From contig NZ_OY762974.1 in the NCBI RefSeq assembly GCF_963667135.1, positions 4,105,054 through 4,169,053 of the forward strand: 64,000 nt of DNA, in the 5' to 3' direction. Both the position numbers and the translations under genes were made by a program. Shown here one piece after another: positions 1 through 13,337 of the stretch (positions within the stretch are counted from its first letter, which is position 1; the number at the start of each line of letters is the position of its first letter). Below the pieces are notes generated by a model. The model searched no databases and was not told the DNA's origin. It saw only the letters and a list, made by a program, of their open reading frames with translations. This DNA comes from an uncultured Macellibacteroides sp. (lineage in GTDB: Bacteria > Bacteroidota > Bacteroidia > Bacteroidales > Tannerellaceae).

Positions 1-305
1 GAAACAGGAGGAACCACCGAACGCAATGCGCCCCTCGTACACATCAGGGAGTCGGCGTATTCGATAAGCGGTACAATTGACAAATCAAGTCTTTCCAATC
101 CCGAGGTAGGTCCCATTATGTATCCGTGATCGAAAGCCAGCATAACCGTACGTCCTGTAGCCGGATTAAAAATCCGGCTCATTCTGTCCTTAATTCCCCA
201 GTCACAATGATCCAGTCCCTTTAGAAAGTAAGATTGTTTCTGTACAGGGACACCTATTCCGTAATCTTTGTCTTTGTTGGCGATAATGCCATCTAAATCT
301 GCCAT
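1..305 (-). CDS. LsrF-like thiolase/aldolase, N-terminal part (cut by window edge)
   Basis: The frame opens with ATG at 305 and runs off the left edge without a stop, giving about 101 residues. The translation reads MADLDGI, then [20 protein letters not shown], then [12 protein letters not shown] and [14 protein letters not shown]. This closely follows the N-terminus of LsrF (3-hydroxy-5-phosphonooxypentane-2,4-dione thiolase, class I aldolase fold), as I remember it. LsrF transfers an acetyl group from a phosphorylated C5 dione to CoA, releasing acetyl-CoA and dihydroxyacetone phosphate. The catalytic lysine lies beyond the window and cannot be checked. The gene starts 27 bp after dhaL and is the last visible gene of the cluster. 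No lsrK or lsrB is visible, so an AI-2 role is not implied. Another class I aldolase of the DeoC/LacD superfamily with a different substrate is the main alternative. Confidence 0.85.
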
Positions 306-332
306 TTTCTTATAATTAAAATGTAAAAGTTA

Positions 333-947
333 TTATACAGCCTCTGCAAATGCAGCAAACATACATGACCACGAAGTTGCTCCCGAATCTGCATAACCAA
401 TTGACTGCTCTCCGTAGTTACGGGCTCTTCCAAAATTAGCTTTCATCCTGACTGTATCTTCGGCTCCCTTTAAGGCTGCATCCGCAGCAGACAACAGCAA
501 TTCTTTTACATCTGCGGTGTCTGAATTCTGCATCGCCTCAACAGCCGGAATTAAAGCATCCATCATTGTTTTATCACCCTTCTGAGCCTTTGTCTGCTTC
601 TGAACGTTTTCGAGTCCTCCGGCAAACATGGCTTTTACTCCATTTACATCAAGTAAAGAGCCGCTTGCATGATCGCTCATTCCAAGAAAGAAAGCGCCTA
701 GCAACGTACTTGTAGAACCGCTGGTTTGCAGCATTACAGCAAATCCCATATCATTAAGTACCGATTTGAACTCGGTTCCTTTTTCGAGAGGAGTCATTAC
801 GCAAGAAAGAGCCGTAACAATAGCAGTTCCGTGATCACCGTCACCAATAACCGCATCGAGTTTCGAAAATTCGTCTTCCCTAAGCTTTACATGAACCAGC
901 GCGTTACTCATCATCGCTTTAAAAGCGTCTATCGTTAATAATTCCAT
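333..947 (-). CDS. dhaL: Dihydroxyacetone kinase subunit DhaL (nucleotide-binding)
   Basis: This 204-residue protein matches the DhaL/Dak2 family length. Near the N-terminus it has DAVIGDGDHGT, whose aspartates (about D31, D36, D38) coordinate the Mg-nucleotide. It is followed by a segment rich in Gly and Ser (LQTSGSTSTLLGAFFLG) and a C-terminal helical bundle with ARNYGEQSIGYADSGATSW. DhaL supplies the phosphoryl group to the ketose bound by DhaK. It starts 3 bp after the dhaK stop, so the two are almost certainly cotranslated. No DhaM-like PTS subunit is present nearby, so whether the donor is ATP or a PTS-charged nucleotide cannot be told from this window. Pairing with an LsrF-like gene suggests the substrate may be a larger ketose or dione than dihydroxyacetone; that is inference. 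Confidence 0.93.
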   Translation of the reverse strand: MELLTIDAFKAMMSNALVHVKLREDEFSKLDAVIGDGDHGTAIVTALSCVMTPLEKGTEFKSVLNDMGFAVMLQTSGSTSTLLGAFFLGMSDHASGSLLDVNGVKAMFAGGLENVQKQTKAQKGDKTMMDALIPAVEAMQNSDTADVKELLLSAADAALKGAEDTVRMKANFGRARNYGEQSIGYADSGATSWSCMFAAFAEAV

Positions 948-950
948 GTT

Positions 951-1967
951 TTATTTACCTATTGTAACCCAGTAAGGTGCATCTGCACGTTTGTTTTTCA
1001 AATAATCAATGTGATCAGCGTCAAGTCTGGCAATTATCATCTGGAAACCAGCTTGCTCCTGAACGGTAAGGATTTCTTGGATACGGCCTTCCACCACATC
1101 AAATCCCTTTTCCTCCAAAACAAGACATGATTTACGATAAATAATATTCAGTTCCATATGAGTTGTTGCCCCTACTCCATTAATGATAAGCATTAATTTA
1201 TCTCCTGCGGCAGGTTTAAGTTGTTGCAACAACAGGTCTACCATTTGAGAAGCAGTTTCATCGGCCGATACTAATGGCTGGCGTCCACCACCACCTTCTC
1301 CGTGCTGTCCCATACCTATCTCCATAATACCTTCGGGAAGGTCGGTTATGATACCGTTGTTCTGAGGATGTGTGCAAGAACGCATAGCAACAGCAAGAGT
1401 TGCTACATTATCACAGAAACGTTCGCCGATTTCCAATAATTCATCCAATGATTTACCTTCTTCAGCAGCAGCTCCGATAATTTTAAACAAAGGAACGCAA
1501 CCAGCCAATCCGCGACGGTCGTCTTTCGGAGCACCAATCCCGGCGCTTATGTCGTCGTGAGTAAGTAAACGCTTCACCTTGATGCCCACACGTTCGGCAA
1601 GTTGGCAAGCCATGTTGGCACTCATTACATCACCCGAGTGATTTAGAACAACCAACAATATTCCGGCTTCTCTTTTAAACATTTGCAGTGCCTGGAAAAG
1701 ACGCTGTGCTCCTGGTGCGGCAAATATATCGCCTACCACAGAGCAATCAAGCATTCCTTCGCCAACAAAGCCACTTAATGCAGGCTCGTGACCCGATCCG
1801 CCCAAGGTTACAATAGCCACTTTATCTTCGCTTTTTGGATGAACACGAACAACAATGTTCTCGCCACCTAAAGTCACTTTATCTTTATATGCCATTACAT
1901 AGCCTTCCAATAGTTCCTGGGTAATATTTTCCGGATTGTTTATGAATTTTATCTTATTTGCTGACAT
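951..1967 (-). CDS. dhaK: Dihydroxyacetone kinase subunit DhaK (substrate-binding)
   Basis: The 338-residue protein has the DhaK signature LGGSGHEPALSGFVGEGMLD (H60 within GGSGHEP), the acid/base histidine region of the family. It also has H222 in GMGQHGEGGGGRQPL, at the position of the histidine that covalently holds the ketose carbonyl. The GHGE region carries an unusual run of four glycines followed by RQ, compared with the GEPG commonly seen. This may reflect a changed substrate pocket. It lies 23 bp after the VOC gene and 3 bp before dhaL. DhaK-family kinases also act on erythrulose and other C4 ketoses, so the substrate should not be assumed to be dihydroxyacetone. The family assignment is firm; the physiological substrate is unknown. 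Confidence 0.93.
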   Translation of the reverse strand: MSANKIKFINNPENITQELLEGYVMAYKDKVTLGGENIVVRVHPKSEDKVAIVTLGGSGHEPALSGFVGEGMLDCSVVGDIFAAPGAQRLFQALQMFKREAGILLVVLNHSGDVMSANMACQLAERVGIKVKRLLTHDDISAGIGAPKDDRRGLAGCVPLFKIIGAAAEEGKSLDELLEIGERFCDNVATLAVAMRSCTHPQNNGIITDLPEGIMEIGMGQHGEGGGGRQPLVSADETASQMVDLLLQQLKPAAGDKLMLIINGVGATTHMELNIIYRKSCLVLEEKGFDVVEGRIQEILTVQEQAGFQMIIARLDADHIDYLKNKRADAPYWVTIGK

Positions 1968-1990
1968 GTTTGAGTCTCCTTTCGTATGAT

Positions 1991-2305
1991 TTATTTAATT
2001 TCCATTAATTCTATGGCAATACCTTCTTCTTCAATAAAAGCAATGGTAAGGTGTTCGTCGCATACAGCCGGTCCGAAGATTACTTTTTGGCCCTCTAATG
2101 CTGTTGTCAGACAAGGTACAGTGTAAGCGATATGTGCTGTAGTCTGAACAAGTTCCGGAAGACAAGAGCCTTCTTCGAATTTCAGGAACTCGATCTTATT
2201 TTCACTTTTGCTAAAATCGGTTAACCAAACATTCAAGCCTTCGTTTAGTGATGCACCTTCTTTAATGTCATTTACAGGCACTCCAAAATGATTTAATGTT
2301 CTCAT
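1991..2305 (-). CDS. Small VOC-superfamily (glyoxalase-like) protein
   Basis: A 104-residue soluble protein about the length of one VOC module. It begins MRTLNHFGVPVNDI, has a central HIAYTV segment, and ends EEEGIAIELMEIK. These beta-strand segments resemble vicinal-oxygen-chelate proteins, in which paired beta-alpha-beta-beta-beta units bind a metal through His and Glu. Candidate ligands are the His in NHFGV, the His in AHIAY and the Glu in AIELME. It sits directly upstream of dhaK on the same strand, so an epimerase or isomerase role on the sugar-derived intermediate is plausible. I see no signal peptide. The exact activity cannot be read from the sequence. Confidence 0.7.
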   Translation of the reverse strand: MRTLNHFGVPVNDIKEGASLNEGLNVWLTDFSKSENKIEFLKFEEGSCLPELVQTTAHIAYTVPCLTTALEGQKVIFGPAVCDEHLTIAFIEEEGIAIELMEIK

Positions 2306-2337
2306 GATAAGTCAGATTTAAATTAGTATTATTATAA

Positions 2338-4776
2338 TTAGAATTTATTTCTTTGAAAACCCCTGTACGAAACAAGGCCAAGCAGAATAACTACAGCCAG
2401 TATGATATAGAGGTATATGAAAATTCCATGAATATCGTCGTTTTGACCATATGAGTGCATCCCGCTCAACAAATAGTTGACACCAAAGAATGTCATCATC
2501 ACAGATGCAAAGCCAAGAACCGAACCTAGATTCAGAGCCCATTTATTCTTAAATGATTTTACCATATGCATGTGTAGAACAATAGCATAGACAACGACTG
2601 TAATCAGAGCCCATGTTTCTTTCGGGTCCCATCCCCAATATCTTCCCCAAGATTCGTTAGCCCAAACCGCACCCAGGAAAGTACCGATTGTCATAAGTAT
2701 TAGCCCTACCCAAAGAGCCATTTCATTTACTATTGAAAGTTCGCCGACACGGGCCTTTAACATTTCCTTATTCTTTGCCCCTGTTATGCTCATAAGCACA
2801 AGATTAGTTATTCCGATTAAAAAACCGATTCCAAAGAAACCATAAGCCGCTACAATTACTGCCACATGAAACATTAGCCACGGCGATTTAAGAACCGGCA
2901 CAAGTGGATTAATCTGTGGATCCATCCAGTTAAGACCCGATACAAACAGGATAATACCAGCAAAAAGTGTAGCAAGAGCAAATGTCAGCACACTTCGCCG
3001 TCCGAACAAAATACCTGCCAGAACTGTAGCCCAAGCAACGTACACCATTGTCTCGTACGAATTGGACCAGGGAGCATACCCACCGATGTACCAGCGTAAT
3101 CCCATTCCATACATATGATAAATAAAAGCAAGTAATACCAAACCCATTAATGCTTTTGTTCCCCAAAACAACCAACGGATCTTTTTAAACAAAGTAATAA
3201 AGGAGAATAGTAGTAATAACCCTCCCAGACTCAGGTAAAATATTTTTGTAAAACGGAACACTTCCTGTTTGTTGTACTTTATTTCGGAAGCAATCTTTTC
3301 ATGATCTATTTTCAATGTACCGCTTTTTGCATCCTGATACGTACCGATCATACCAAGCACTTCATCTGCTTTACTCCAGTCGCCCGACTTAAAGGCTGCT
3401 TGTACTTCAGACAGATACCAATCCATCACACGGGAAACAAACATGGAGTCTTTTCCTGTAAAAGCAGACAGATCATCTCCCGACGAATACCACTTATGCG
3501 AGGTATCATCTTCTTTAGGAAATAGATTCAACATCTGGCCATTCATTAACTGATGGACAATATTGACCTGTTCATCCAGTTTCAGCAAATCCTTATCAAA
3601 ACGTGATCTTTCGTTTGGCATTTTATTGTATGCCTCTTCGACACCCTCTTGTAATTTATAATTACCATTGGAATCGAACATTTCAATATAAGCACTTTCT
3701 TTTTCAGTGAGATTATAAAAATCGGATAGTTCTTTATTGGATACGGCTATAAAGGGAACCCGCATCCACATTTCTGGCATAGCGAGTAAACTAAGAAGAA
3801 ACTGATCGGAATTAAGGGACCCGATCTTGTCCGATTTGTGTAATTTGCGTAATACCTCTGAGGAGAAAGTATTAACCGGGATCATTCGTCCATTGGACGA
3901 TTGAACCGGTAATGCGCCAAATATTTCGGCGTGATTTTCGTTTACGGCGTACTTTTGAACGGCATCAATCATTTGATTAGAGCCATTTTCAGCATTTATA
4001 GTAAGGGAGAAGCAAAGTAAAACAATAAGCGCCAACACTTTTTTATTCGAGTCAATTAATTCTTTTAAGCGTCGGTTTAGTTTCATAAAACGGGAATTCT
4101 TTCCCAAAAGACTTAGAATTAGTCCTATTAACAAAAGAAAATAACCGGTATAGGTTACATTTCGTCCGGCAACATCCCGGTTAACAGACAATACGGTTCC
4201 CAACTCGTCGGCATCGAAAGAAGCCTGAAAGAAGCGGTAACCTTTCACATCCATCACATTGTTCATATAAACCCTTTCGTGCCGGGTTTTACCATCTACG
4301 TGCACCAATAACTCGCTTTCATAGGACGACGGACTTGATGATCCGGGATAACGGTGAAGATTGAATTTGATAAGTTCAACACTAAAAGGAAGCTTTTTAA
4401 AAGAAGAGGATTCCGACGTATGTATCGCCATAACATTTGTGCTTTCGCCTTCGCGAATATGCATTATACCCTCTTCACCAAACAAATGGGAAATAAGTGC
4501 ACCCAACAGAATAACAATAAAAGCAATATGGGTAACTATCAGCCCCCATTTTTTCTTTTTAAACAAGCCCTTCTTCAATGCCAAAGCAACAAAGTTTACA
4601 ACGAGGAGGAATTGTAATAAAAAGAACAAAGGAGAATAATAAATCATTGCCTTAGCCGCCAGCGTTCCGTGATACTTTTCGATAAAAGTAGCAAGAGCAA
4701 GCCCTCCGGCATAGATCAATAATAAAACTATCGTAGTTACGGCAGAGGATAAAAATCCATTTAAAGATGCTTTCAT
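2338..4776 (-). CDS. ccsBA: Cytochrome c biogenesis protein CcsBA (ResB-CcsA fusion)
   Basis: This 812-residue integral membrane protein carries a ResB/CcsB-like N-terminal half. It has several hydrophobic helices in the first 90 residues and a periplasmic loop, then another helix pair near 205-255. A long soluble segment (about 260-505) follows. The C-terminal CcsA domain has about eight helices and the WWD heme-handling motif (ESWGRYWGWDPKETWALI, about residues 705-722). System II synthases export heme and ligate it to CxxCH motifs of exported cytochromes. Two genes upstream on the same strand encode exported proteins with two CxxCH motifs each, so this synthase probably serves them. It starts 59 bp after the preceding gene, with a hairpin terminator between them, so it may have its own promoter or depend on readthrough. 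Confidence 0.93.
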   Translation of the reverse strand: MKASLNGFLSSAVTTIVLLLIYAGGLALATFIEKYHGTLAAKAMIYYSPLFFLLQFLLVVNFVALALKKGLFKKKKWGLIVTHIAFIVILLGALISHLFGEEGIMHIREGESTNVMAIHTSESSSFKKLPFSVELIKFNLHRYPGSSSPSSYESELLVHVDGKTRHERVYMNNVMDVKGYRFFQASFDADELGTVLSVNRDVAGRNVTYTGYFLLLIGLILSLLGKNSRFMKLNRRLKELIDSNKKVLALIVLLCFSLTINAENGSNQMIDAVQKYAVNENHAEIFGALPVQSSNGRMIPVNTFSSEVLRKLHKSDKIGSLNSDQFLLSLLAMPEMWMRVPFIAVSNKELSDFYNLTEKESAYIEMFDSNGNYKLQEGVEEAYNKMPNERSRFDKDLLKLDEQVNIVHQLMNGQMLNLFPKEDDTSHKWYSSGDDLSAFTGKDSMFVSRVMDWYLSEVQAAFKSGDWSKADEVLGMIGTYQDAKSGTLKIDHEKIASEIKYNKQEVFRFTKIFYLSLGGLLLLFSFITLFKKIRWLFWGTKALMGLVLLAFIYHMYGMGLRWYIGGYAPWSNSYETMVYVAWATVLAGILFGRRSVLTFALATLFAGIILFVSGLNWMDPQINPLVPVLKSPWLMFHVAVIVAAYGFFGIGFLIGITNLVLMSITGAKNKEMLKARVGELSIVNEMALWVGLILMTIGTFLGAVWANESWGRYWGWDPKETWALITVVVYAIVLHMHMVKSFKNKWALNLGSVLGFASVMMTFFGVNYLLSGMHSYGQNDDIHGIFIYLYIILAVVILLGLVSYRGFQRNKF

Positions 4777-4796
4777 TTTATTCGTAAAAATTGAAA

Positions 4797-4826
4797 AGAA
4801 GTGGCAGCACTAAAACTGCCACTTCT
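4797..4826 (-). terminator. Hairpin terminator after the NPCBM/propeller/SUMF1 gene
   Basis: Perfect 11-bp arms (AGAAGTGGCAG at 4797-4807 and its complement at 4816-4826) enclose an 8-nt loop. On the minus strand the stem is followed by a short T-rich run (TTTC, then ATTTTT). It lies 9 bp after the end of the 1325-residue gene and 21 bp before ccsBA, so it splits the cluster into two transcripts or attenuates the distal half. Confidence 0.75.
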
Positions 4827-4834
4827 CTTTATAA

Positions 4835-7800
4835 TTAATCTTCTATAATTACTCTGAATCCAACATTGTGAACACGCTGCCAGGGATAATAAGCCTTACG
4901 CTCGTACGCAGTCGAGAATTTAGGACGGTCAATATAAGAACCACCTCTTACTACCTTATAATCAGAAATGTTCTTCGACTTTTCGTTATAAGGATAAGGC
5001 TGGTAGGACGATCTTGTCCATTCTGCTATATTCCCATGCATACTGTATAGACCAAACGGATTAGCCTTATATTCCTTTGCATTCGATTGAATCATATTTC
5101 CATCATCCACGCATTCCACTTTAGGTAAAAAGCTATAATACTTATACCACGAATTGTCTTTGCTCATTGGCTGCGGATCAATACCGCTAACAGCCATTTT
5201 ATTGAGCTGAACATCCGCAAGGTTTTCGTTTTTACCAAAATCGCTGTTCAGGTTTCCGAACCAGAAATCGGTGTTGCTTCCTGCCCGGCAAGCCCATTCC
5301 CACTGCGCTTCTGTAGGCAAAGTAATGGTAAAACCTGTCTTTTCACTCAGCTTATTGCAATAAGACATGGCATCCTCATAACTTACCCTGATTACAGGCT
5401 GGTGCGGAAGATTGGCGGCATAGCCCGGACGGGTATGATCTTTCCAATGTTGATCCACATAACGACTGTCGTGATCCGGGAAAATTACATTGTACTGAGC
5501 ATTGGTAACTTCAACATCGGCCATCCAGAATGATTTTCCAATTGTAACTTTGGAAACAGGACGGTTGTCGGCATTACCCTGATTGCTACCCATTACAAAC
5601 TGACCTGCAGGTATCCTTACAAAAGTCATTTTTATTCCAGGTGCCAAAACTACCTCTTTGCGGTTTTCCTTTTCATTGGCAAGCATCGCTTTTATCTGAT
5701 CCGGAGCAAAAGGCCAGCCTTTCGCCTTCACTTGCTTTTCTTTTACAGGAGCTTGCTTTTCAGGCATTACAGGTTTGATATCGCCTTTGCCTTTCAAATA
5801 AGCGGCATAAGAGGCAACTTCTGCTTTCCAGTCTACGCCCGCATTATTGTATTTATTGGCAAGTTCGATACGACGTTCAATCTGATTAAAGCCATTCTGA
5901 TTTGTTGCATCAAAGTAACCTTTATCAGGAGCATTGTAGTCAATCCAGTTGTACAAAGATTTCCACTCTGTATCAGTAAGTTTTACATTGTGGTGACCTT
6001 TTTTCAGTATACGGATCAGTTCGCTTGTGCTTGCATAATACTCATACGGCTGCAAAACGATCATGTCCGCTTCCGGTCCCTGACGATGCACAAAAGGATG
6101 TAAATTAAGGTAAGACGTACCATAACCACGTTTGTCTTTCTTCCCACCACGTAAATCAAACGCACTTTTCTCGCCATTGTGACAAGCTATACATGCACGA
6201 TCCAATACAGGTTGAACCTCAAGATCGAATGTAAAAGAACGAACGCCGCCTTCGGGAGTCTTTAATTTTACAGGAGCTTTCGTAGAAGCCATTACCTTTT
6301 TAGGCATTGGAATCTGATTTTGATCTTCATGGCATCCTACACAGGAAACCACTTCGCCGGGCATTCCAGTAAACCAGCTTCGCATCCATTGGATGGCACG
6401 GCCTTCGGAATCTAACGGTTGAATAGAAACCGGGGTATTGGCTGGAATCTTGAACATGACTGATCCATCTTCTTCGACAGGTACAGTCCCCATCAAACGT
6501 TTGATATCCCAGCCGCTTTGAATACCCTGAGCCACATGATCAGACTCTGTTTTAAGGTATGCATATTCGTACCCATGAATTCGCAACGATTTAACCGTGC
6601 CTCTTGGCACACCCCGAAGACCTTCGCCTTCGTATATATCCTGAATAAATATAGTAGATTCCTTTTCCTGAAGTTTTACTCTGTCGGGAATAGCCGGAGG
6701 TGTCGTTGTTTCGCGAACCAAAATAGGGCTGATAAGACCTTCGCCTTCGAATTGAGCCAGACATGTAACATTATCATATACGTCCACCAGATAAATACCC
6801 CACAGAGCATTTGGATCCAATTTGGCTGCAACCAGATAATAAGAGTCATCCAATGGCATTGGCTTTACAAACTGAGGCCATACACCATTTACCAATTCAT
6901 CTTTGATTTCAGGAATAATAGGACGATTACGGAAAGGAATTTCCTGTAACATACCCTCTACCCCTTTGCGAGCTTTTGAAGGGTCAAATAAAATGATTCG
7001 TCCTGAACGTGCAATACCGTGGTGACCTGAAATAATTCCTACAAATGCAGAAGAATGTCCAGGTAATGGTTGGATATCGAACGTACTGTTAGGGAACATA
7101 GCACCACTACCAAACAAGGCTTTATTCTCTGTTCCGTCGGGATTCATATGCATGATAATACGAGAGAAGTAATGGGTAAGGTCTGTATATTCCCATCGGG
7201 TATACATAACACGGCCATTGTGCATAATTACCGGATTCCAGTTTGCATCCTGATCAAAAGTTAAACGTCGGAGACCTTTGTTCTGTGGTGTATAAAGAAC
7301 CATATTTCCTACAGGATCAGATCCGCTTACACAAGGAACACCCTGATAACCTATGTTTGAATTAGCAATGATTCGTCCATCAGGAAGATAAGTTCCATCA
7401 TAGAACTCAAGATCGGGCTCGACTGTTTCAACCAATGGCTTACATCCTGTACCATCCAGTTTTACTTCAAAAACATTCCAGCGCTTGTCTGGCATAATAG
7501 AAGTAAACATAACCCGTTTACCGTCCCAGTGAAGTTTTAAATCGGCTATGGAAGCTGTTTCCTGAGGTTTATAAACCGTACGAATCTTTAAATCGCCACG
7601 CAAATTTGAAAGCTCCACTATCTCCGCGTCAAAACCCTGACGTCGGGTAGATTGTTGGTTACTCCAGTTGTTTGCCTGCGTTCCCAAATCGGGAGCCATT
7701 GCTTTACGGGCTTTCATTCCCAGTTTAAAACGGGTAGCTATCACCTTATCTATGTCGAGCAACGGATTACCAAGCAAAACGGCCCGTTTGAGAGCGATCG

Positions 7801-8812
7801 CTCTTTCTGCACCGGCAATTGCTTTTTCGTCGCCTGTATATATCCCGCTAAATCCTTTATTTACCAACGATTCGAGTTCGTTAAACATCGGTTGATATTT
7901 TGCTGTATCGAAACCTTTACGACTTTTCATATCGTTGAATGCCAGACGTACCGATTCAATATTCAGCCAACCAAGTTCTGATTGAAGTTGAAGAACCTGC
8001 TGCATCTGCTCATAAAGAGACAAATAGCTTCTTATCTGCTGATCGATTCCCTTTTCCGCTTCAATCTGCTTTACCTTTTGAAGGAAGAAAGTACTGTTTT
8101 TAAGGTTATCTGCAAGCTTCAGCACGACCTCTTTCTCGAAAGAAGCATCTTTAGAAGATAACCAGTTTTCCATTCCATCCACATACGCACTGAATGGTTC
8201 AAGTTCGCTTGGATAAAGAGTAAGCAGTTTTTTTGCTTCCTCTTTTGGAAATATATTCAAGACACGAAAAAAGACGCTGCCAACTTTTGATTGATCATCG
8301 ATTCCTACTTCCGCCTCAAAGCGAACATATTCTTTGTTAATATCAAAAACCATCACCCCATTGGCGTGGCATATCATTCCATGATCATACTTCTGTCCGG
8401 AAATGGACAGAGGTGCGTCATATAAGTTTTTATTTCTGGAAACCGAACCAGAACCTGCTACCTCATAGGAAGGAGTCAGTTCGTCCAGCCAAACCTGAGT
8501 ACCATCCGCCTTAATCAGACGGGCATTAGCCCAAACGCCCCAATCCCAGTCGTTTCCGTCTGGTCCTGCGGTTGTAACCAGCACAAGTTTATCCTGACCT
8601 TTAAGTGTGGCCGAAATGGGAGCAGCTTTCATTTTAGCCTTCATCCAGGAAGATTCTACCGGCATGGATGCTTTATCTAACTGCGATCGAAATACTGCCT
8701 TTTGCTTTACAACAGCATCAATCCAGCTGTCTGCTCCTTCTTTTTTCGGCGCAGCCGATACAAAGAAAGAGGCAGACAAAAAGATTGTTAGTAATTTATT
8801 AAAGTTAGCCAT
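4835..8812 (-). CDS. Exported modular redox protein: NPCBM-like, beta-propeller, two c-heme motifs, SUMF1-like domain
   Basis: This 1325-residue protein opens with a signal peptide (hydrophobic to about residue 21, ending FFVSAAPKK). Residues about 70-190 resemble an NPCBM carbohydrate-binding module (GQKYDHGMICHANG, then EVGIDDQ). A helical region (about 200-370) follows, then a PD40/WD40-like propeller from about 430 to 720 (for example HWDGKRVMFTSIMPDKRW). Two CxxCH heme c motifs lie at C824-H828 (CVGCH) and C874-H878 (CIACH). The C-terminus (about 1080-1325) is a SUMF1/formylglycine-generating-enzyme-like fold (IPAGQFVMGSN, LPTEAQWEWACRAGS, GNIAEWT, VVRGGSY). The propeller-plus-heme part recalls the hydrazine synthase alpha-subunit superfamily, but nothing here suggests anammox. 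I infer a periplasmic heme-dependent oxidoreductase or binding protein for a carbohydrate-like ligand. Function is unknown. Confidence 0.85.
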   Translation of the reverse strand: MANFNKLLTIFLSASFFVSAAPKKEGADSWIDAVVKQKAVFRSQLDKASMPVESSWMKAKMKAAPISATLKGQDKLVLVTTAGPDGNDWDWGVWANARLIKADGTQVWLDELTPSYEVAGSGSVSRNKNLYDAPLSISGQKYDHGMICHANGVMVFDINKEYVRFEAEVGIDDQSKVGSVFFRVLNIFPKEEAKKLLTLYPSELEPFSAYVDGMENWLSSKDASFEKEVVLKLADNLKNSTFFLQKVKQIEAEKGIDQQIRSYLSLYEQMQQVLQLQSELGWLNIESVRLAFNDMKSRKGFDTAKYQPMFNELESLVNKGFSGIYTGDEKAIAGAERAIALKRAVLLGNPLLDIDKVIATRFKLGMKARKAMAPDLGTQANNWSNQQSTRRQGFDAEIVELSNLRGDLKIRTVYKPQETASIADLKLHWDGKRVMFTSIMPDKRWNVFEVKLDGTGCKPLVETVEPDLEFYDGTYLPDGRIIANSNIGYQGVPCVSGSDPVGNMVLYTPQNKGLRRLTFDQDANWNPVIMHNGRVMYTRWEYTDLTHYFSRIIMHMNPDGTENKALFGSGAMFPNSTFDIQPLPGHSSAFVGIISGHHGIARSGRIILFDPSKARKGVEGMLQEIPFRNRPIIPEIKDELVNGVWPQFVKPMPLDDSYYLVAAKLDPNALWGIYLVDVYDNVTCLAQFEGEGLISPILVRETTTPPAIPDRVKLQEKESTIFIQDIYEGEGLRGVPRGTVKSLRIHGYEYAYLKTESDHVAQGIQSGWDIKRLMGTVPVEEDGSVMFKIPANTPVSIQPLDSEGRAIQWMRSWFTGMPGEVVSCVGCHEDQNQIPMPKKVMASTKAPVKLKTPEGGVRSFTFDLEVQPVLDRACIACHNGEKSAFDLRGGKKDKRGYGTSYLNLHPFVHRQGPEADMIVLQPYEYYASTSELIRILKKGHHNVKLTDTEWKSLYNWIDYNAPDKGYFDATNQNGFNQIERRIELANKYNNAGVDWKAEVASYAAYLKGKGDIKPVMPEKQAPVKEKQVKAKGWPFAPDQIKAMLANEKENRKEVVLAPGIKMTFVRIPAGQFVMGSNQGNADNRPVSKVTIGKSFWMADVEVTNAQYNVIFPDHDSRYVDQHWKDHTRPGYAANLPHQPVIRVSYEDAMSYCNKLSEKTGFTITLPTEAQWEWACRAGSNTDFWFGNLNSDFGKNENLADVQLNKMAVSGIDPQPMSKDNSWYKYYSFLPKVECVDDGNMIQSNAKEYKANPFGLYSMHGNIAEWTRSSYQPYPYNEKSKNISDYKVVRGGSYIDRPKFSTAYERKAYYPWQRVHNVGFRVIIED

Positions 8813-8843
8813 TATATGTGTTTATGGTATTATAGCTCTGGTA

Positions 8844-9551
8844 TTATAAAGAAGCTTTAGGATTTGTAAAACGCAATCCGGCGTTGTCATGATAAGAAGC
8901 CCATTCTGATACAACAGCACCCTGAGGTCCGGCAATCAGGAAATGGAATGTTTCAATTTTCTTGAGGTTTACCAATTCACCTGCATGTTGTTCTACAAAG
9001 TTCTTGCTTGTTATAAAACCTTTCTGACTATCCGGCAATTTAGGTGCGTTAGGCGTTTCTTCTCCTACAGCCGAAAAATTATAGCACATACCCTTCTGAA
9101 CCATCCACGATTCATACTTGGCAGGATATTTAGTTTTTACGTGAGCATGTTCAGGAATCATCTGGCTGGGAAGCAGATAAATTTCGTGAGCAAAGTATCC
9201 GTGTTCTACATCATTTACCCAAAAGATACCACCCATACCTGTATTCTCGAAATCGCCCAAGCCAAAGTCAGTAACCCACATATCCTTTTCCATAAGAGGG
9301 GTAAACGGAATTCCATAAAACTCGAACATGTCTTTATATGCCTTCATGGCAACTTCTTTGTCAAACTTGCCGTCTTTATAGAAGTCGGCGTTAGTAAATT
9401 TTTTCGCGTAAGTCATTTCCTTATTATTAGTACATACTGAATCTTTACCGCAACAAGTCGAATCTTTTGCATCAGCAGAAGCGTCGCCGGCAGTTTTACC
9501 CGTGCAAGCAACCAATGAACATACAAGTAAGCTCATGGCAAGTGTTTTCAT
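8844..9551 (-). CDS. Cupin-like lipoprotein (sugar-isomerase-like), function unknown
   Basis: From the ATG at 9551 the protein has a lipoprotein signal (MKTLAMSLLVCSLVAC) with the lipidated Cys at residue 16. An in-frame ATG at 9569 would add six residues and is less likely. A short Cys-rich tether (DSTCCGKDSVC) follows. The body, about 200 residues, contains PEHAHVKTKYPAKYESWMV, where H-x-H, Lys and Glu are spaced as in metal-binding cupins of the lyxose-isomerase kind. The end, EWASYHDNAGLRFTNP, also resembles that group. It lies between the NPCBM/propeller gene (31 bp) and the RidA-like gene (51 bp), all on one strand. I infer an outer-surface or periplasmic cupin acting on the same sugar-like compound. 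The cupin assignment is from motif pattern only. Confidence 0.65.
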   Translation of the reverse strand: MKTLAMSLLVCSLVACTGKTAGDASADAKDSTCCGKDSVCTNNKEMTYAKKFTNADFYKDGKFDKEVAMKAYKDMFEFYGIPFTPLMEKDMWVTDFGLGDFENTGMGGIFWVNDVEHGYFAHEIYLLPSQMIPEHAHVKTKYPAKYESWMVQKGMCYNFSAVGEETPNAPKLPDSQKGFITSKNFVEQHAGELVNLKKIETFHFLIAGPQGAVVSEWASYHDNAGLRFTNPKASL

Positions 9552-9602
9552 TTTAAATTCTGTTCTCATTTTGTTTTTAAATGTATTTGTGAATAATTAG
9601 AT

Positions 9603-10700
9603 TCAACACTTTGCTATTCCTTCTATTTCTATCAATAGTTCGTCGCGGCACACATCAGCCCACATATACGAAACAGGAATAGTTAATTTATACGCTTGCA
9701 TCAATTGCTCGGCTTCGTCCACAAATGATTTGTCTTTCAGATAAACCCGCAACATAGAAAGTTCGCCTGTTTTACCAACAAGCTGTGCAATATTCTCCAT
9801 CGTAATTTCAAGTTGTTTGGCTAATCCAATTCCCTTGAGACTCTCCTCACCCCGGATAGCAGCCGTACCTGATATATAGATCAACCCCTTTTCTTTGATT
9901 GTTAAGCGCTTTGCCCGCTCAAATTTGGGAGTAGCCTTTCGGTTATGGCATGCAACAAGAACCTGATCCGAGTAAGCATGAGCCGCAACCTGCAATTTAT
10001 TATCAATCGGACTTGCAGAACAGTCGTCTTGTTTGAAAACTACAGCATCCAGATCGATAACGACACCTCCCCAATGCGCACCAATTCCTGTGGCCGCAGG
10101 GTATCCTTCGGGCCACATTGTCTTTTCATAAAAAGATGCTCGTGCATCATTAAAAGCCTGATAGTTCTGGTATTCGTCACAAAATCCGGTAATCTTTTCA
10201 ATATAATTCCATTGCCTTACAATACTGTTTACAGGAAAGCCTTCTTTAACCAGCAGATCGTTTACCTGAGAGAAAACGTCTGCAGATTGCGCTTCAATAG
10301 TTTTATTGATAAAATCGTCCTGAAATCCTCCGGCAAACAAAAAACGACCTTCCTGATTTTCGAGCACTACATAGGGCAACTCTCCGTTTTCACGATAAGA
10401 AACAACATCTGTTTCGTCTGTCTTATAACTGTGAACCTCCAGAAGCAAAGCTCCACGCAAGGGAGGTTGAGCCACATAACTTACCGAAGGTTGACTTGTT
10501 CCAAAGCAAGTCTTCACCTTATCGCGGATAATGGATCTTCTTTGGTCGTATTCTTCATTTGAAACAGGCATGCCAATAAACACAAGACGAAGAATGTTCT
10601 CGTCTGCAGGTAGCCGAGACAATAATACATCCACCATCTCTGCAAATCCGGCACGTTCAGCAGCACATATTCTATATTTTATTTTATCGCAATAATTCAT
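9603..10700 (-). CDS. RidA/chorismatase-fold (YjgF superfamily) protein
   Basis: The 365-residue protein is about three times the length of RidA. The C-terminal part (about 235-365) is a YjgF-like module: GLIYISGTAAIRGEESLKGI, then LEITMENIAQLV, then MWADVCRDELLIEIEGIA. The last segment resembles the ADVCR-x-DLLVEIEA ending of FkbO/Hyg5-type chorismatases as I recall them. The N-terminal 230 residues form a divergent companion domain without a clear signature; GIGAHWGGVVIDLDAV lies near the domain junction. There is no signal peptide, so it is cytoplasmic. It follows the YVTN/heme gene by 9 bp and precedes the cupin lipoprotein. Chorismate is unlikely to be the substrate in this context; an enamine or enol hydrolase step is a possible role. 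Confidence 0.75.
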   Translation of the reverse strand: MNYCDKIKYRICAAERAGFAEMVDVLLSRLPADENILRLVFIGMPVSNEEYDQRRSIIRDKVKTCFGTSQPSVSYVAQPPLRGALLLEVHSYKTDETDVVSYRENGELPYVVLENQEGRFLFAGGFQDDFINKTIEAQSADVFSQVNDLLVKEGFPVNSIVRQWNYIEKITGFCDEYQNYQAFNDARASFYEKTMWPEGYPAATGIGAHWGGVVIDLDAVVFKQDDCSASPIDNKLQVAAHAYSDQVLVACHNRKATPKFERAKRLTIKEKGLIYISGTAAIRGEESLKGIGLAKQLEITMENIAQLVGKTGELSMLRVYLKDKSFVDEAEQLMQAYKLTIPVSYMWADVCRDELLIEIEGIAKC

Positions 10701-10709
10701 TTTCTGTTC

Positions 10710-12482
10710 TTATAAGGAGTTTACGTACTCCGTTAATGCTTCGATTTCTTTTTTCGACACTTTCTTATCGATTCCGTGCTTTTGCACTTCAAAAACTTCC
10801 TGCATAGTGGCTGCCCGTCCGTTAAACAAATAGGGTGCCGTACGCCATACTTCGATCAGCGTTGGGGTATCCCATCCTTTTTCGAACTCAATGTTCTCGC
10901 CAATTCTATGCATCTTCTGGTCGGTGTAGTAAGGTCCGCTATGGCATTCGCCGCACTGCAGCTTATCAAAAACCTTACGGCCTTCTTTTGCCTTCTCGCT
11001 TAATTCTCCATTTACGAGCAAGGGACTTGGTACGGGACGTAAAGCTTTTAAGTAGGCATCCACACAGACAGCATGTTCTTCTTTTACTTCAAAAAACTGA
11101 ATAAACTTAAACCCGGCCCTAACAGCCCACTCGGCTGTCTCACGTATTCCCGAAATCATACTGGGAGCCGTTACATGCGAATAAAGCATACTCTTGCAGT
11201 TCTTGGAATTTCCTACACCATCGTTCATCAAATCCCAGTTCATTCCATCGGCACGGCCTTCTCCAGGATGACATCCTGTACAAGACTGCCAGCCCTGAAA
11301 GCAATGCGTGGCATCATTAAAGTGCTTTTCGCCGCTGTTTTCCATCGTTTCCTCGCGACCCGGATTCATATCCACAGCTTTAACACTGAGGTTGTCCAAA
11401 TCCACTACATTAAGTATATCGGCAAAATAAGTAGGAATAAGCAGTGTATTACCTTTTAGCAAAAGCAGGCGGGGACCGTTACCTTCAAGTTGTATTCGCT
11501 TGCGCAAACCATACAAAAAATGCAAGTCGTAACTCAGATTTTCTTTATTTGCATAAGCTTCAAACTTCTTCCGCATAGCAGGATGGTCTATCACGCTTAC
11601 TTCATGGGTACCGGAATGGGTAATAAAAAGTCTGGCTTCATTGCAGGCAATACTCCAGACTCCTGCCGCGCCCTTTTCTGGTTCGTCCACCAAAACAGAA
11701 CCCAGGTAAGTTTGTTTAGCCACATCTATTACGCTAAATGCGCTGGTATTCATCCAACCTTGTTGAAGCTGCGACGTAGGAACGGCAAAACGGCCCAGAT
11801 TATGCGATACATACACATACTTTCCGTCGGGAGTAATGCAAATGCCGTTCACAGCATTGCTACCGTTGGCTATCTGAATATCACGCACTTTTTTAAAACT
11901 TTTCATCTCAATAACCGAAACACAGGCTGCAACAACATCCACATCCGCCCGTTGAGCCGGAAGGAAATTGGTTACGAACATGTATTTACCGTCTTTGCTA
12001 ATTACCGCCCCTTTGGGTTCACGCAGTACACGAGTTGTACGTACTACTTTGCGGCTTGCCAGATCTATTTCGGAAACCGTATTCGAAAACTGATTGCATA
12101 CGTAAACATATTTTTTGTCGGCACTCAGCATTGGATAACATGCACCCGATCCAACTGGTATAGAAGATTCTATACGACCGGATTCGAGCAAAAGCACTTG
12201 CAATTTGCCGGTAGACTTAAACGTAGTTACATAGGCTTTGTTGCCATCCACCGTAAGTCCGGTAGGCTCATCATCCAGGGGATACGAACGAACCAGCTTG
12301 CTGCCGTCGGCCGAAAATAAATCCACCCTATTCAGTCCTTTCTGCGATAGCAGCAGCTCCCCCTTGTCTGTCAGCACCATTGCGGTAGAGAAAAACGGAC
12401 GACTACCGGCCATGACGCATAAAGTAAGACAACAAGCCAAACTAATCAGAAAAACTTTTCTTATTAAATATCTCTGTTTCAT
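10710..12482 (-). CDS. Exported YVTN-type beta-propeller with di-heme cytochrome domain
   Basis: The start at 12482 gives 590 residues with a clean signal peptide (KQRYLIRKVFLISLACCLTL) and leaves 10 bp after the iclR stop. A longer frame to 12521 would overlap iclR and add 13 non-signal residues. Residues about 30-375 hold repeated propeller blades of the YVTN/YncE kind (KKYVYVCNQFSNTVSEIDL, GKYMFVTNF, GKYVYVSHN). The C-terminal part has two c-type heme sites, C401-TG-C404-H405 and C510-GE-C513-H514, in a layout like the di-heme peroxidase/MauG superfamily (LFNGRAATMQEV at the end). It should be periplasmic and need CcsBA for maturation. It could be a dehydrogenase, or an electron acceptor for the larger heme protein downstream. 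Substrate unknown. Confidence 0.85.
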   Translation of the reverse strand: MKQRYLIRKVFLISLACCLTLCVMAGSRPFFSTAMVLTDKGELLLSQKGLNRVDLFSADGSKLVRSYPLDDEPTGLTVDGNKAYVTTFKSTGKLQVLLLESGRIESSIPVGSGACYPMLSADKKYVYVCNQFSNTVSEIDLASRKVVRTTRVLREPKGAVISKDGKYMFVTNFLPAQRADVDVVAACVSVIEMKSFKKVRDIQIANGSNAVNGICITPDGKYVYVSHNLGRFAVPTSQLQQGWMNTSAFSVIDVAKQTYLGSVLVDEPEKGAAGVWSIACNEARLFITHSGTHEVSVIDHPAMRKKFEAYANKENLSYDLHFLYGLRKRIQLEGNGPRLLLLKGNTLLIPTYFADILNVVDLDNLSVKAVDMNPGREETMENSGEKHFNDATHCFQGWQSCTGCHPGEGRADGMNWDLMNDGVGNSKNCKSMLYSHVTAPSMISGIRETAEWAVRAGFKFIQFFEVKEEHAVCVDAYLKALRPVPSPLLVNGELSEKAKEGRKVFDKLQCGECHSGPYYTDQKMHRIGENIEFEKGWDTPTLIEVWRTAPYLFNGRAATMQEVFEVQKHGIDKKVSKKEIEALTEYVNSL

Positions 12483-12492
12483 CGTTACTCCA

Positions 12493-13302
12493 TTAAACAT
12501 TCGTAGTACGGATGTACCCAAGTTCTCCCGAAATATTGCGGGCCATATCTTTTATATGCGCTGCCGAAGTACGGATTACCTCTTTCGTAAGACGGTCTTT
12601 CGGTCCCGAAATCCAGATAGCTCCACAGGGATAGCCCGTATAATTAAATATAGGGGCTCCGATACAAATCACACCACCCATTTCTTCTTCGTTATCCATG
12701 GCAATACCTGTTGCACGCACTTTGTCGAGTTCCGCCAGATAAGCATCCCTGGTTGTAATGGTACGGGCATTGTAACGTTCGAACGACATATACGACAGGT
12801 AGCGATCTCTCACTATATTGGGTAGAAAAGCCATAATGGCCTTTCCCGGTGCCGAACAATGAAGTTCGAACGGCTTACCCGGCGAAAGCACAAAACGAAA
12901 TGTATGATTTCCCTGCGCCTGCTCAATAAAAATACCTTTCTCGTTGCCAAGTACTCCGAAACAAGCTGTTTCGCTTACAAGATCGCGCAGATCACGTAAA
13001 CGGGGAACAACAGTTTCGAGCAGATTATGCTCATTAAGCGCCCTGAACCCCAAAGTAAGAAGTTTGCGGGACAACTTATACCGCTTGGCATCCTCGTTAT
13101 ACATAAGATAATCCAGACGAACCAACGTATTGAGAATACGGTAAGCTGTGGTCTGCGAAATATCAAGCGCATCCTTTATGGCCTGCAAGGTATCCCCTTG
13201 AGAACGAAGCGAAAGATATTCCAATACCGCTATCCCTTTTTCGAGATTAGGCACCTTGTAATTATCTTCTCCTTTTTCCATATTTGGATGAGCACTTTCC
13301 AT
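12493..13302 (-). CDS. IclR-family transcriptional regulator
   Basis: The 269-residue protein has an N-terminal winged helix-turn-helix (about 18-80: NLEKGIAVLEYLSLRSQGDT, then ALDISQTTAYRILNTLVRL). The effector-binding domain follows (about 95-260), with the family features GKAIMAFLP, GIAMDNEEEMGGVICIGAPIF and CGAIWISGP. IclR proteins sense small organic acids, sugars or aromatics, usually repressing the adjacent catabolic operon. It is the first gene of the minus-strand cluster, 10 bp ahead of the YVTN/heme gene. It is the obvious local regulator. The inverted repeats just upstream suggest it also controls its own promoter. Confidence 0.92.
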   Translation of the reverse strand: MESAHPNMEKGEDNYKVPNLEKGIAVLEYLSLRSQGDTLQAIKDALDISQTTAYRILNTLVRLDYLMYNEDAKRYKLSRKLLTLGFRALNEHNLLETVVPRLRDLRDLVSETACFGVLGNEKGIFIEQAQGNHTFRFVLSPGKPFELHCSAPGKAIMAFLPNIVRDRYLSYMSFERYNARTITTRDAYLAELDKVRATGIAMDNEEEMGGVICIGAPIFNYTGYPCGAIWISGPKDRLTKEVIRTSAAHIKDMARNISGELGYIRTTNV

Positions 13303-13305
13303 ATT

Positions 13306-13337
13306 TGAAATTATGTTTCAGATTTGAATCAAATATA
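13306..13337 (-). promoter_or_regulatory. Probable iclR operon promoter with overlapping inverted repeats
   Basis: Just upstream of the iclR ATG lie two inverted repeats. One is TGAAA-N5-TTTCA (13306-13320); the other is ATTTGA-N-TCAAAT (13322-13334). On the minus strand TATATTTG (13330-13337) fits the Bacteroidota -7 element TAnnTTTG. It overlaps the second repeat, an arrangement expected for an autoregulated repressor. No good -33 TTTG is visible at the usual distance, so the promoter may be weak or activator-dependent. Confidence 0.45.

Follow-up and report, generated by a model that had tools for sequence, protein, structure and literature searches.

Homologues of hydrazine synthase subunits encoded with sugar-type enzymes and an LsrF thiolase in a Bacteroidales operon

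Gene content of the locus

Here we describe an operon at the edge of a 64,000-nucleotide window (the whole stretch of DNA analysed, positions 4,105,054 to 4,169,053 of NZ_OY762974.1) from an uncultured Macellibacteroides sp., and in particular two exported heme proteins encoded in it that are homologues of hydrazine synthase beta-gamma and alpha. Coordinates refer to this window; L002 denotes an overlapping stretch that reaches past the window edge, and both come from one complete 4.46-Mb genome. Ten minus-strand genes, with iclR first, extend beyond the edge. An earlier note on the same DNA, made from the sequence alone, had listed these genes, and all of them were found where it had placed them; its domain calls agree with Pfam and NCBIfam matches, the VOC protein and the lipoprotein having no match there, and the hairpin that it had seen near 4797 is present at 4794-4829. 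The features, from the regulator onwards, are as follows.

13296..13333, minus strand: double operator-like element, consisting of TTTGATTCAAATCTGAAA at 13316-13333 and TTTCAAATATGGAAA at 13296-13310, the latter overlapping the iclR start codon
12493..13302, minus strand: IclR-family regulator (PF01614 2.7e-38, PF09339 1.5e-9)
10710..12521 (probable real start 12482), minus strand: hydrazine-synthase beta-gamma-like fusion, 603 aa, exported, two CxxCH
9603..10700, minus strand: chorismatase-like protein (FkbO/Hyg5, Rid superfamily; PF21168 1.9e-13)
8844..9569, minus strand: lipoprotein of the D-lyxose/D-mannose isomerase cupin family (profile matches 7nzo, 2y0o)
4835..8812, minus strand: hydrazine-synthase alpha-like protein, 1325 aa (PF18582 with NPCBM and FGE-like domains, two CxxCH)
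4794..4829, minus strand: terminator-like hairpin between the alpha-like gene and ccsBA, seen in the sequence
2338..4776, minus strand: CcsBA (ResB-CcsA fusion), cytochrome c synthase (PF01578 1.1e-40, PF05140 2e-23)
1991..2305, minus strand: small VOC-like protein (invariant H6, E39, H58, E99)
951..1967, minus strand: DhaK-type ketose kinase subunit (PF02733 5.8e-95)
333..947, minus strand: DhaL-type kinase subunit (PF02734 4.9e-37)
1..305, minus strand: LsrF thiolase, N-terminal part (NF006081); whole gene at L002:12481-13359

The exported heme proteins and their partners

The best NCBIfam model for the 603-residue protein is NF052342, the hydrazine synthase beta-gamma fusion (1.5e-26; 92.8 bits, cut-off 1250). 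When a profile of 24 beta-gamma relatives was compared with the PDB, 1l0q came first (1.9e-31), followed by the anammox hydrazine synthase chains 5c2v_B (4.8e-22) and 5c2v_C (2.3e-19). Foldseek gave 5c2v_B as the top match of its AlphaFold model (pLDDT 72.9; E 3.9e-22, TM 0.84 on the target). The signal peptide was judged by eye, and two CxxCH motifs are found in 59/59 members.

The 1325-residue protein, also with two CxxCH motifs and a signal peptide judged by eye, combines PF18582, the middle domain of hydrazine synthase alpha (8.8e-38), with NPCBM (5.9e-27) and FGE-like (7.9e-45) domains. The FGE-like domain dominates a PDB search with the whole protein, and hydrazine synthase is absent among the matches listed. 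A profile of the alpha core, in turn, matched 5c2v_A (2.5e-10 over the full sequence, with weaker values for individual stretches), the only other match having E 0.2. The AlphaFold model of this core (pLDDT 70.6, pTM 0.67) likewise had 5c2v_A as its best fold match (E 1.7e-19, 745 alignment columns, TM 0.57/0.51), the best match outside hydrazine synthase being TolB (4.1e-7). Two CxxCH motifs are present in 80/82 alpha pieces; the two pieces lacking them are N-terminal fragments of split open reading frames (ORFs), in L036 and L077. The alpha-like ORFs of eight loci (L059, L065, L067, L069, L108, L109, L111 and L112) align only from about window residue 182-273 and, judged from these alignments, appear to be without the NPCBM part.

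An identity of the alpha-like protein as an FGE/EgtB-type enzyme was considered and rejected, because the FGE-like portion is confined to the C-terminus and is without the catalytic cysteine pair. The final cysteine of the window protein is residue 1234/1325, and the C-terminal pair that we take to be catalytic in FGE is not found. Public records (L147-L149) call the alpha-like protein a SUMF1/EgtB/PvdO nonheme iron enzyme and the beta-gamma-like protein a YncE family protein or c-type cytochrome, names that hide the relation to hydrazine synthase.

The two proteins are thus homologues of hydrazine synthase beta-gamma and alpha. The pair has the alpha plus beta-gamma architecture, with gamma recognised by sequence, and its heme motifs are distributed as in hydrazine synthase, two in alpha and two in gamma. 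The earlier note had recognised both as exported heme proteins, which holds, and had missed this relation.

Residues key to hydrazine synthase, and their numbering, were taken from PMC12758564 and PMC12607021 (the available portions of these papers, as of the others cited below), in which alpha Tyr591 is a ligand of heme alpha-I. At the corresponding position, four residues past the CxxCH histidine, 29/29 aligned sequences have Asn or Ser. For gamma, the 5c2v_C chain position plus 39 reproduces the published His106, His144 and Cys165 in a pairwise alignment. Cys165, which forms a third heme bond, and Asp168 face window residues 467-468, and residues 462-471 are without Cys or Asp in 24/24 sequences. 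His144 aligns into a stretch absent here; H449 lies close by in 23/24 sequences and, by its place in the alignment, may be a stand-in. C442, W429, M455 and R460 of the beta-gamma protein are invariant in 24 sequences, and H940 of the alpha-like protein is invariant in 29 and might be the second ligand of the alpha-II heme.

Hydrazine synthesis proper is unlikely, since alpha Tyr591, gamma Cys165 and gamma Asp168 are not conserved. A broader nitrogen chemistry, in which the complex reduces NO or, as in anammox, joins nitrogen species, for NO defence or nitrogen metabolism, would be consistent with the shared architecture and four heme motifs, with the NrfA of the host and with H449, which could replace gamma His144. 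It is, however, at odds with the loss of the same three residues and with conserved neighbours of sugar type, and nrfA lies ~337 kb off, near a separate CcsA-like gene; we consider this explanation highly improbable. A genome search with PF13447 (hydrazine dehydrogenase/HAO) returned no match, though its control gave none either. With the loss of several residues to which a key role in hydrazine chemistry has been ascribed, the exported heme pair looks like a repurposed hydrazine-synthase-type complex and is probably not a hydrazine synthase. The joining of both heme proteins in a single complex is something we infer.

The lipoprotein encoded between them has profile matches to 7nzo (1.8e-16) and 2y0o (2.6e-12). 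Its H141, H143, E153 and H209 are invariant in 20 sequences and correspond to the residues that presumably bind the metal in D-lyxose/D-mannose isomerase; the lipobox, LVAC, was identified by eye. These matches assign it to the D-lyxose/D-mannose isomerase cupins, as a predicted part of the exported core. The chorismatase-like protein reaches 97.5 bits against TIGR04444 (cut-off 325), far below the level of a chorismatase; the Hyg5 and FkbO structures (5ag3, 4.1e-33) align with its C-terminal part, at profile positions 152-362 of 364, and no signal peptide was seen by eye. CcsBA scores 180.9 bits with TIGR03144 (cut-off 187.6). NrfA is also encoded in this genome, close to a second CcsA-like gene (G000:C1:4455426-4458724), so that each of the two c-heme loci has a synthase gene close to it.

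The composition of this exported core also bears on a possible reductive or peroxidase function of the heme complex, whose gamma part is related to MauG and cytochrome c peroxidase, with the sugar route merely feeding it electrons or repairing damage. The gamma-type domain does match CCP/MauG models weakly, under their cut-offs. However, the core partner is a lipoprotein of a sugar-isomerase family, and the recurrent neighbour gene clusters include no catalase or peroxidase family, so we regard such a function as unlikely.

Conservation and linkage of the gene set

A scan of genome contigs yielded 109 relatives of the alpha-like protein, the best 80 of which define the loci compared here; all thus contain alpha, and all 80 record titles name Bacteroidales, as we take their genera to be placed. 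A gene was counted as present if it matched with 35% identity or more across 30% of the query, or scored above 120 bits. In 51/80 loci, termed flank-complete, the contig extends at least 4.5 kb before and at least 7 kb after the alpha gene. Within these 51, beta-gamma is present in 46, the isomerase-like gene in 45, IclR and CcsBA in 39 each, DhaL and LsrF in 36 each, VOC and DhaK in 35 each, the chorismatase-like gene in 34 and a propeller gene in 26. Beta-gamma is accompanied by at least three of VOC, DhaK, DhaL and LsrF in 35/51; one of these loci, L033, is not independent, since in each of the 13 operon genes the best segments are 98-100% identical to the window. The isomerase-family lipoprotein co-occurs closely with beta-gamma (45/46 flank-complete loci with it, 0/5 without). 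Alpha occurs alone in 4/51, and the remaining locus (L083) is on a truncated contig. Seven of the 80 loci, L083 among them, have LsrF or DhaK without beta-gamma, all with less than 5 kb of contig before the alpha gene.

The commonest order among relatives is IclR, beta-gamma, chorismatase-like, isomerase-like, alpha, CcsBA, VOC, DhaK, DhaL, LsrF and propeller, with tight spacing (median gaps of 6-64 bases between usual neighbours). The alpha gene is relocated behind LsrF in Rikenellaceae, Bacteroides nordii, B. neonati and another family, and the set remains together there. Cultured species with the pair are Parabacteroides distasonis, P. goldsteinii, P. gordonii, B. salyersiae, B. clarus and B. 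fluxus, presumably all of gut origin. In Aureibacter tunicatorum (Cytophagales), plasmid pAT4 carries nine of the genes, IclR and CcsBA being absent from the fetched stretch, and plasmid pAT2 carries the IclR, beta-gamma, chorismatase-like, isomerase-like and alpha genes. The 35/51 loci with the joint set, together with the rearranged loci that keep it, rule out a chance neighbourhood. The earlier note had proposed that the gene set is one unit, to be given up if no other genome conserved the neighbourhood; many genomes share it, and the unit is borne out. Its two halves, flanking the hairpin, are together in 35/51 testable loci, as that note expected, and are also separable, the exported half occurring alone in 11/51.

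We next consider the distribution across genomes. Full-strength beta-gamma was detected in 2/395 genomes drawn over the phylum, with three more giving partial matches, and in 9/218 drawn over the order, a sample that includes the genome of the window; these surveys, and that of the lipoprotein, scored only some of each genome's first-look candidates. LsrF above 500 bits occurs in 7/218 genomes, all within the 9 beta-gamma genomes (Fisher 8.5e-12), and the lipoprotein above 200 bits in 8/218, again all within the 9 (Fisher 8.1e-14); neither value is corrected for kinship, and the co-occurrence test involves shared ancestry and few positives (9/218). The 7 exclude G475, which has a weaker LsrF match (276 bits, two stops) without beta-gamma, and the 8 exclude two weak lipoprotein matches (63.6 and 57.7 bits). 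Among the 9 beta-gamma genomes, G046 and G601 yielded no LsrF, and G601 no lipoprotein. The 14 genomes behind loci without the cytoplasmic half were searched for LsrF and DhaK at E 1e-20: neither was found in 11/11 exported-half-only genomes (7 metagenome-assembled genomes, where gaps are possible, and 4 named strains), and both occur elsewhere in the 3 genomes with an alpha-only locus. Because 7/7 LsrF genomes have beta-gamma and 11/11 exported-only genomes yielded neither LsrF nor DhaK, the kinase-thiolase half seems to need the exported half, which in turn seems able to do without it. Such a one-way dependence fits cytoplasmic steps that use the product of exported steps.

These data also address whether the operon consists of two unrelated adjacent modules, an exported heme system and a DhaKL-LsrF detoxification unit. 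A hairpin between the halves in the window and some relatives, the exported half alone in 11/51 loci and the rearranged gene order in Rikenellaceae, B. nordii and B. neonati would all be compatible with such a division. Yet full-strength LsrF was not found without beta-gamma among the 218 genomes, and both the rearranged loci and Aureibacter keep the set together, which makes two independent modules quite improbable.

The hairpin itself lies in the 58-base gap before ccsBA and is strong. Among relatives, a perfect stem of at least 8 pairs is present in 14/40 gaps of 20-200 bases vs 1/40 shuffled, the other 26 having none; the gap hairpins before ccsBA (L033-L112) differ in sequence. Because such hairpins stand in loci that keep both genes, they fit partial termination or a difference in stability better than the end of an operon, and the idea of a terminator as a module border is weakened. 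At the other end of the unit, TTTGANTCAAA is found near the called iclR start in 18/46 regions (17/45 loci plus the window), the other 28 having no exact match, and occurs 22 times in total in the 1,573,023 bases of the 80 loci. Twelve-mers are common to up to 24/46 regions vs at most 3 in shuffles, and the element is the sole match in the window at up to 3 mismatches (0.26 expected). The best NCBIfam model of the regulator is BhcR (168.6 bits, under the cut-off of 350). IclR would control the unit locally, via this double site at its own start.

Past the window edge, L002 carries the complete lsrF (292 aa) and, 3' of it on the same strand, genes for an exported propeller of 294 aa (PF22701), a sodium:solute symporter (SSS) of 627 aa (PF00474) and a GH130 protein of 337 aa (PF04041). 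GH130 and a transporter follow the operon in some Tannerellaceae. In L149 (P. distasonis OY725748.1) an MFS gene replaces the symporter before GH130; this record is labelled as a plasmid, carries mfd and other chromosome-type genes and may be a chromosome piece. Alpha-like genes also occur within surroundings of the glycan-degradation type. In L086:9869-18406 such a gene has GH88, GH2 and alginate-lyase-family genes as neighbours (L084 shows the same clusters, and L079 some of them), and in L078 it stands beside SusC/SusD-like genes recognised by eye; the beta-gamma gene was not found in the fetched stretch of L078, L081, L084 or L086. Plasmid pAT4 (L147) has a second alpha-like gene beside two sulfatases and GH2, and a butyrate kinase gene near the DhaK-VOC end.

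The cytoplasmic half, a possible route and related systems

LsrF passes its equivalog cut-off (NF006081, 445.4 vs 297 bits). Its profile matches E. coli LsrF (3gkf) at 428 bits, with the next family at 138, and it is 57.8% identical to Klebsiella LsrF and 57.1% to Salmonella LsrF. K204, invariant in 20 sequences, aligns in the motif KTYY of 3gkf with what we take to be the Schiff-base lysine of E. coli LsrF. Scores and alignment together identify the cytoplasmic end as a predicted true LsrF, and of the thiolytic or aldol cleavage put forward in the earlier note, the thiolytic one fits this assignment. The window LsrF is 74-82% identical to those of L083, L094, L099, L100, L102 and L106 and 61-69% to those of other compared Parabacteroides loci; most of its neighbours in the window are nearest to Parabacteroides loci.

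DhaK could be aligned to 3ct4 and 1uoe and retains the GxGxH histidine; H222, H60 and D113 are invariant in 18 sequences, in agreement with the His and Asp motifs to which we assign substrate binding. In the VOC-like protein H6, E39, H58 and E99 are invariant in 20/20, as expected of a metal site. Compared with the Lsr pathway, a DhaKL-type kinase stands in place of LsrK, and the VOC-like protein perhaps replaces LsrG.

The AI-2-pathway substrate of LsrF, P-HPD, is formally 5-deoxy-2,4-pentodiulose 1-phosphate. By established chemistry, its unphosphorylated form should have the -CO-CH2OH end that DhaK-type kinases bind. LsrF converts P-HPD to dihydroxyacetone phosphate (DHAP) and acetyl-CoA (PMC6410053, PMC7168661).

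Given this relation, the cytoplasmic half might serve the catabolism of autoinducer 2 (AI-2; DPD), with DhaKL for LsrK and VOC for LsrG, and the exported half might capture, interconvert or make DPD-like furanones. LsrF passes its equivalog cut-off and is nearest to the E. coli enzyme, a glyoxalase-type 1,2-shift would match the LsrG step, and LuxS was not found in the host genome by a search whose control matched 5/14, so the host would consume the AI-2 of others. On the other hand, an LsrB/LsrACD-type importer is not among the operon genes of the window, DPD is without a -CO-CH2OH end until isomerised, and AI-2 catabolism does not need a heme oxidase and an aldose isomerase. In our view this makes AI-2 catabolism an improbable function.

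The explanation we prefer, plausible though short of an even chance, is a two-stage catabolic route in which the exported hydrazine-synthase-type complex and the isomerase make a diketo sugar that DhaKL and LsrF cleave inside the cell. A tetraheme complex of the 603-aa beta-gamma and 1325-aa alpha proteins, matured by its own CcsBA outside the cytoplasm, would act together with the exported isomerase-type lipoprotein. Their substrate would be a small sugar, with a (deoxy)pentose or the like as the most likely candidate, and the diketo sugar would arise from it through isomerisation and a two-electron oxidation. After import of this product, the glyoxalase-like VOC protein, and perhaps also the chorismatase-like protein, would rearrange it, DhaKL would phosphorylate its -CO-CH2OH end, and LsrF would cleave it with CoA to DHAP and an acyl-CoA (acetyl-CoA if the substrate is as in the AI-2 pathway). 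A 5-deoxypentose, for instance, would be converted by the isomerase to a 5-deoxypentulose, which, oxidised either at C4 or at C3 with a subsequent shift of glyoxalase type, would give the unphosphorylated LsrF-type substrate. Non-deoxy diuloses would yield glycolyl- or glyceroyl-CoA, and the substrate could equally be AI-2-like or a hexose derivative freed by the GH130 protein. We infer the substrate, the redox direction, the electron partner, the transport and the order of the cytoplasmic steps alike. A sugar-like substrate, which the earlier note had also suggested, fits the exported D-lyxose-isomerase-type cupin and the GH130 and transporter genes of some loci. With slightly more caution still, we propose that the complex oxidises an extracytoplasmic (deoxy)sugar or AI-2-like furanone, coupled to DhaKL-VOC-LsrF thiolysis, which would be the first role outside anammox for this type of complex.

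Several observations weigh against this route. By sequence, the PDB entry that the beta-gamma protein matches best is 1l0q, a plain propeller, and the gamma half of the beta-gamma model is of low confidence; the fold is therefore uninformative on the gamma pocket, and the gamma assignment is drawn from sequence. The VOC-like protein has no confident family match (Pfam, NCBIfam; best in the PDB 3hdp, E 0.013, a weak glyoxalase match). DhaK reaches 276.1 bits with TIGR02363 (equivalog cut-off 406.25) and DhaL 131 bits with TIGR02365 (cut-off 138.3). By score DhaK would be a DhaK-type kinase and not a dihydroxyacetone kinase, and because it falls below the dihydroxyacetone-kinase equivalogs its substrate may differ from dihydroxyacetone. 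The operon showed neither a soluble cytochrome nor a quinone-linked partner, and no single transporter is common to all loci. Beta-gamma occurs without any cytoplasmic gene in 11/51 loci, so the LsrF end is not obligatory. The distances of LsrF track those of the other genes least well (rho 0.47-0.68); because of this poor correlation, and because the nearest LsrF differs from that of its neighbours, LsrF seems to have been exchanged between loci or within the operon. Finally, the co-variation of the other genes may be due to species kinship alone.

The architecture and linkage are firm, and suggest a tie to sugar-type catabolism for which the chemistry is proposed here. They further suggest that an unusual heme machinery has a second, undescribed use. 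With a hydrazine-synthase-like pair in cultured species, beside sugar-type enzymes of recognisable reactions, the use and origin of the pair become genetically testable in ordinary anaerobes. The operon also points to an unrecognised gut carbon source or signal. If true, our proposal would establish a catabolic route not described before and give a superfamily long thought special to anammox its first physiological role in a non-anammox member.

In the open-licence literature, searched by title and abstract start (hydrazine synthase with Bacteroides, Parabacteroides or non-anammox), no published description of the operon was found. Nor did we find an open-licence paper that pairs LsrF with dihydroxyacetone kinase under names beginning with Bacteroid, or one among the LsrF/DhaK papers listed; the matches listed for a 3-keto-glycoside and a cytochrome in B. 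thetaiotaomicron appeared unrelated. Relative to the open-licence literature found, the operon is new as a hydrazine-synthase superfamily variant tied to sugar-type catabolism.

Among known systems, the Lsr pathway (LsrK-LsrG-LsrF) resembles the cytoplasmic half in that an LsrF ortholog is preceded by a kinase and a possible isomerase. Unlike that pathway, the operon has DhaKL and VOC for LsrK and LsrG, an exported heme complex and no Lsr transporter. The DHAP shunt for 5-deoxypentoses similarly leads from a 5-deoxypentose to DHAP and a two-carbon unit (PMC10986504, PMC12632272). As described there, that shunt yields an aldehyde, in contrast to the thiolysis to an acyl-CoA and the exported isomerase-type protein proposed for the operon. 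D-lyxose/D-mannose isomerases (7nzo, 2y0o) share the His/Glu pattern of the cupin, which here is an exported lipoprotein. The chorismatase-like protein aligns through its C-terminal part with FkbO/Hyg5 chorismatases, and scores far under the family cut-off. The N-N-forming heme family presented in PMC12154649 is a different, ferredoxin-dependent system.

Also related are the hydrazine synthase homologues that PMC12758564 divides into clades I-IV, found in Planctomycetota, Desulfobacterota and a few others. There too alpha and a fused beta-gamma are encoded together and key hydrazine synthase residues are lost. Clades I-III, as described in that source, differ in having alpha upstream of beta-gamma and FG-GAP genes, and clade I in having extra hemes, none of which is seen here. 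Co-localised pairs named in PMC12758564 are those of Planctomycetota, Syntrophobacter, Paludibaculum and, in clade I, Opitutus; for Bacteroidota the available portions give beta-gamma homologues only, and the pair may stand in the supplement. The same source describes the non-anammox homologues as predicted proteins with lost residues, and the top structural matches of alpha as having no other confirmed function. A beta-gamma fusion is also reported there for Scalindua japonica. Anammox hydrazine synthase itself (5c2v) agrees with the operon in the alpha fold over most of its length, the beta propeller and, by sequence, the gamma diheme domain; in the two CxxCH motifs each of alpha and gamma; and in having beta-gamma upstream of alpha, an order given in PMC12758564. 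It differs in that here beta and gamma are fused, NPCBM and FGE-like domains are added to alpha, and the partners are of sugar type.

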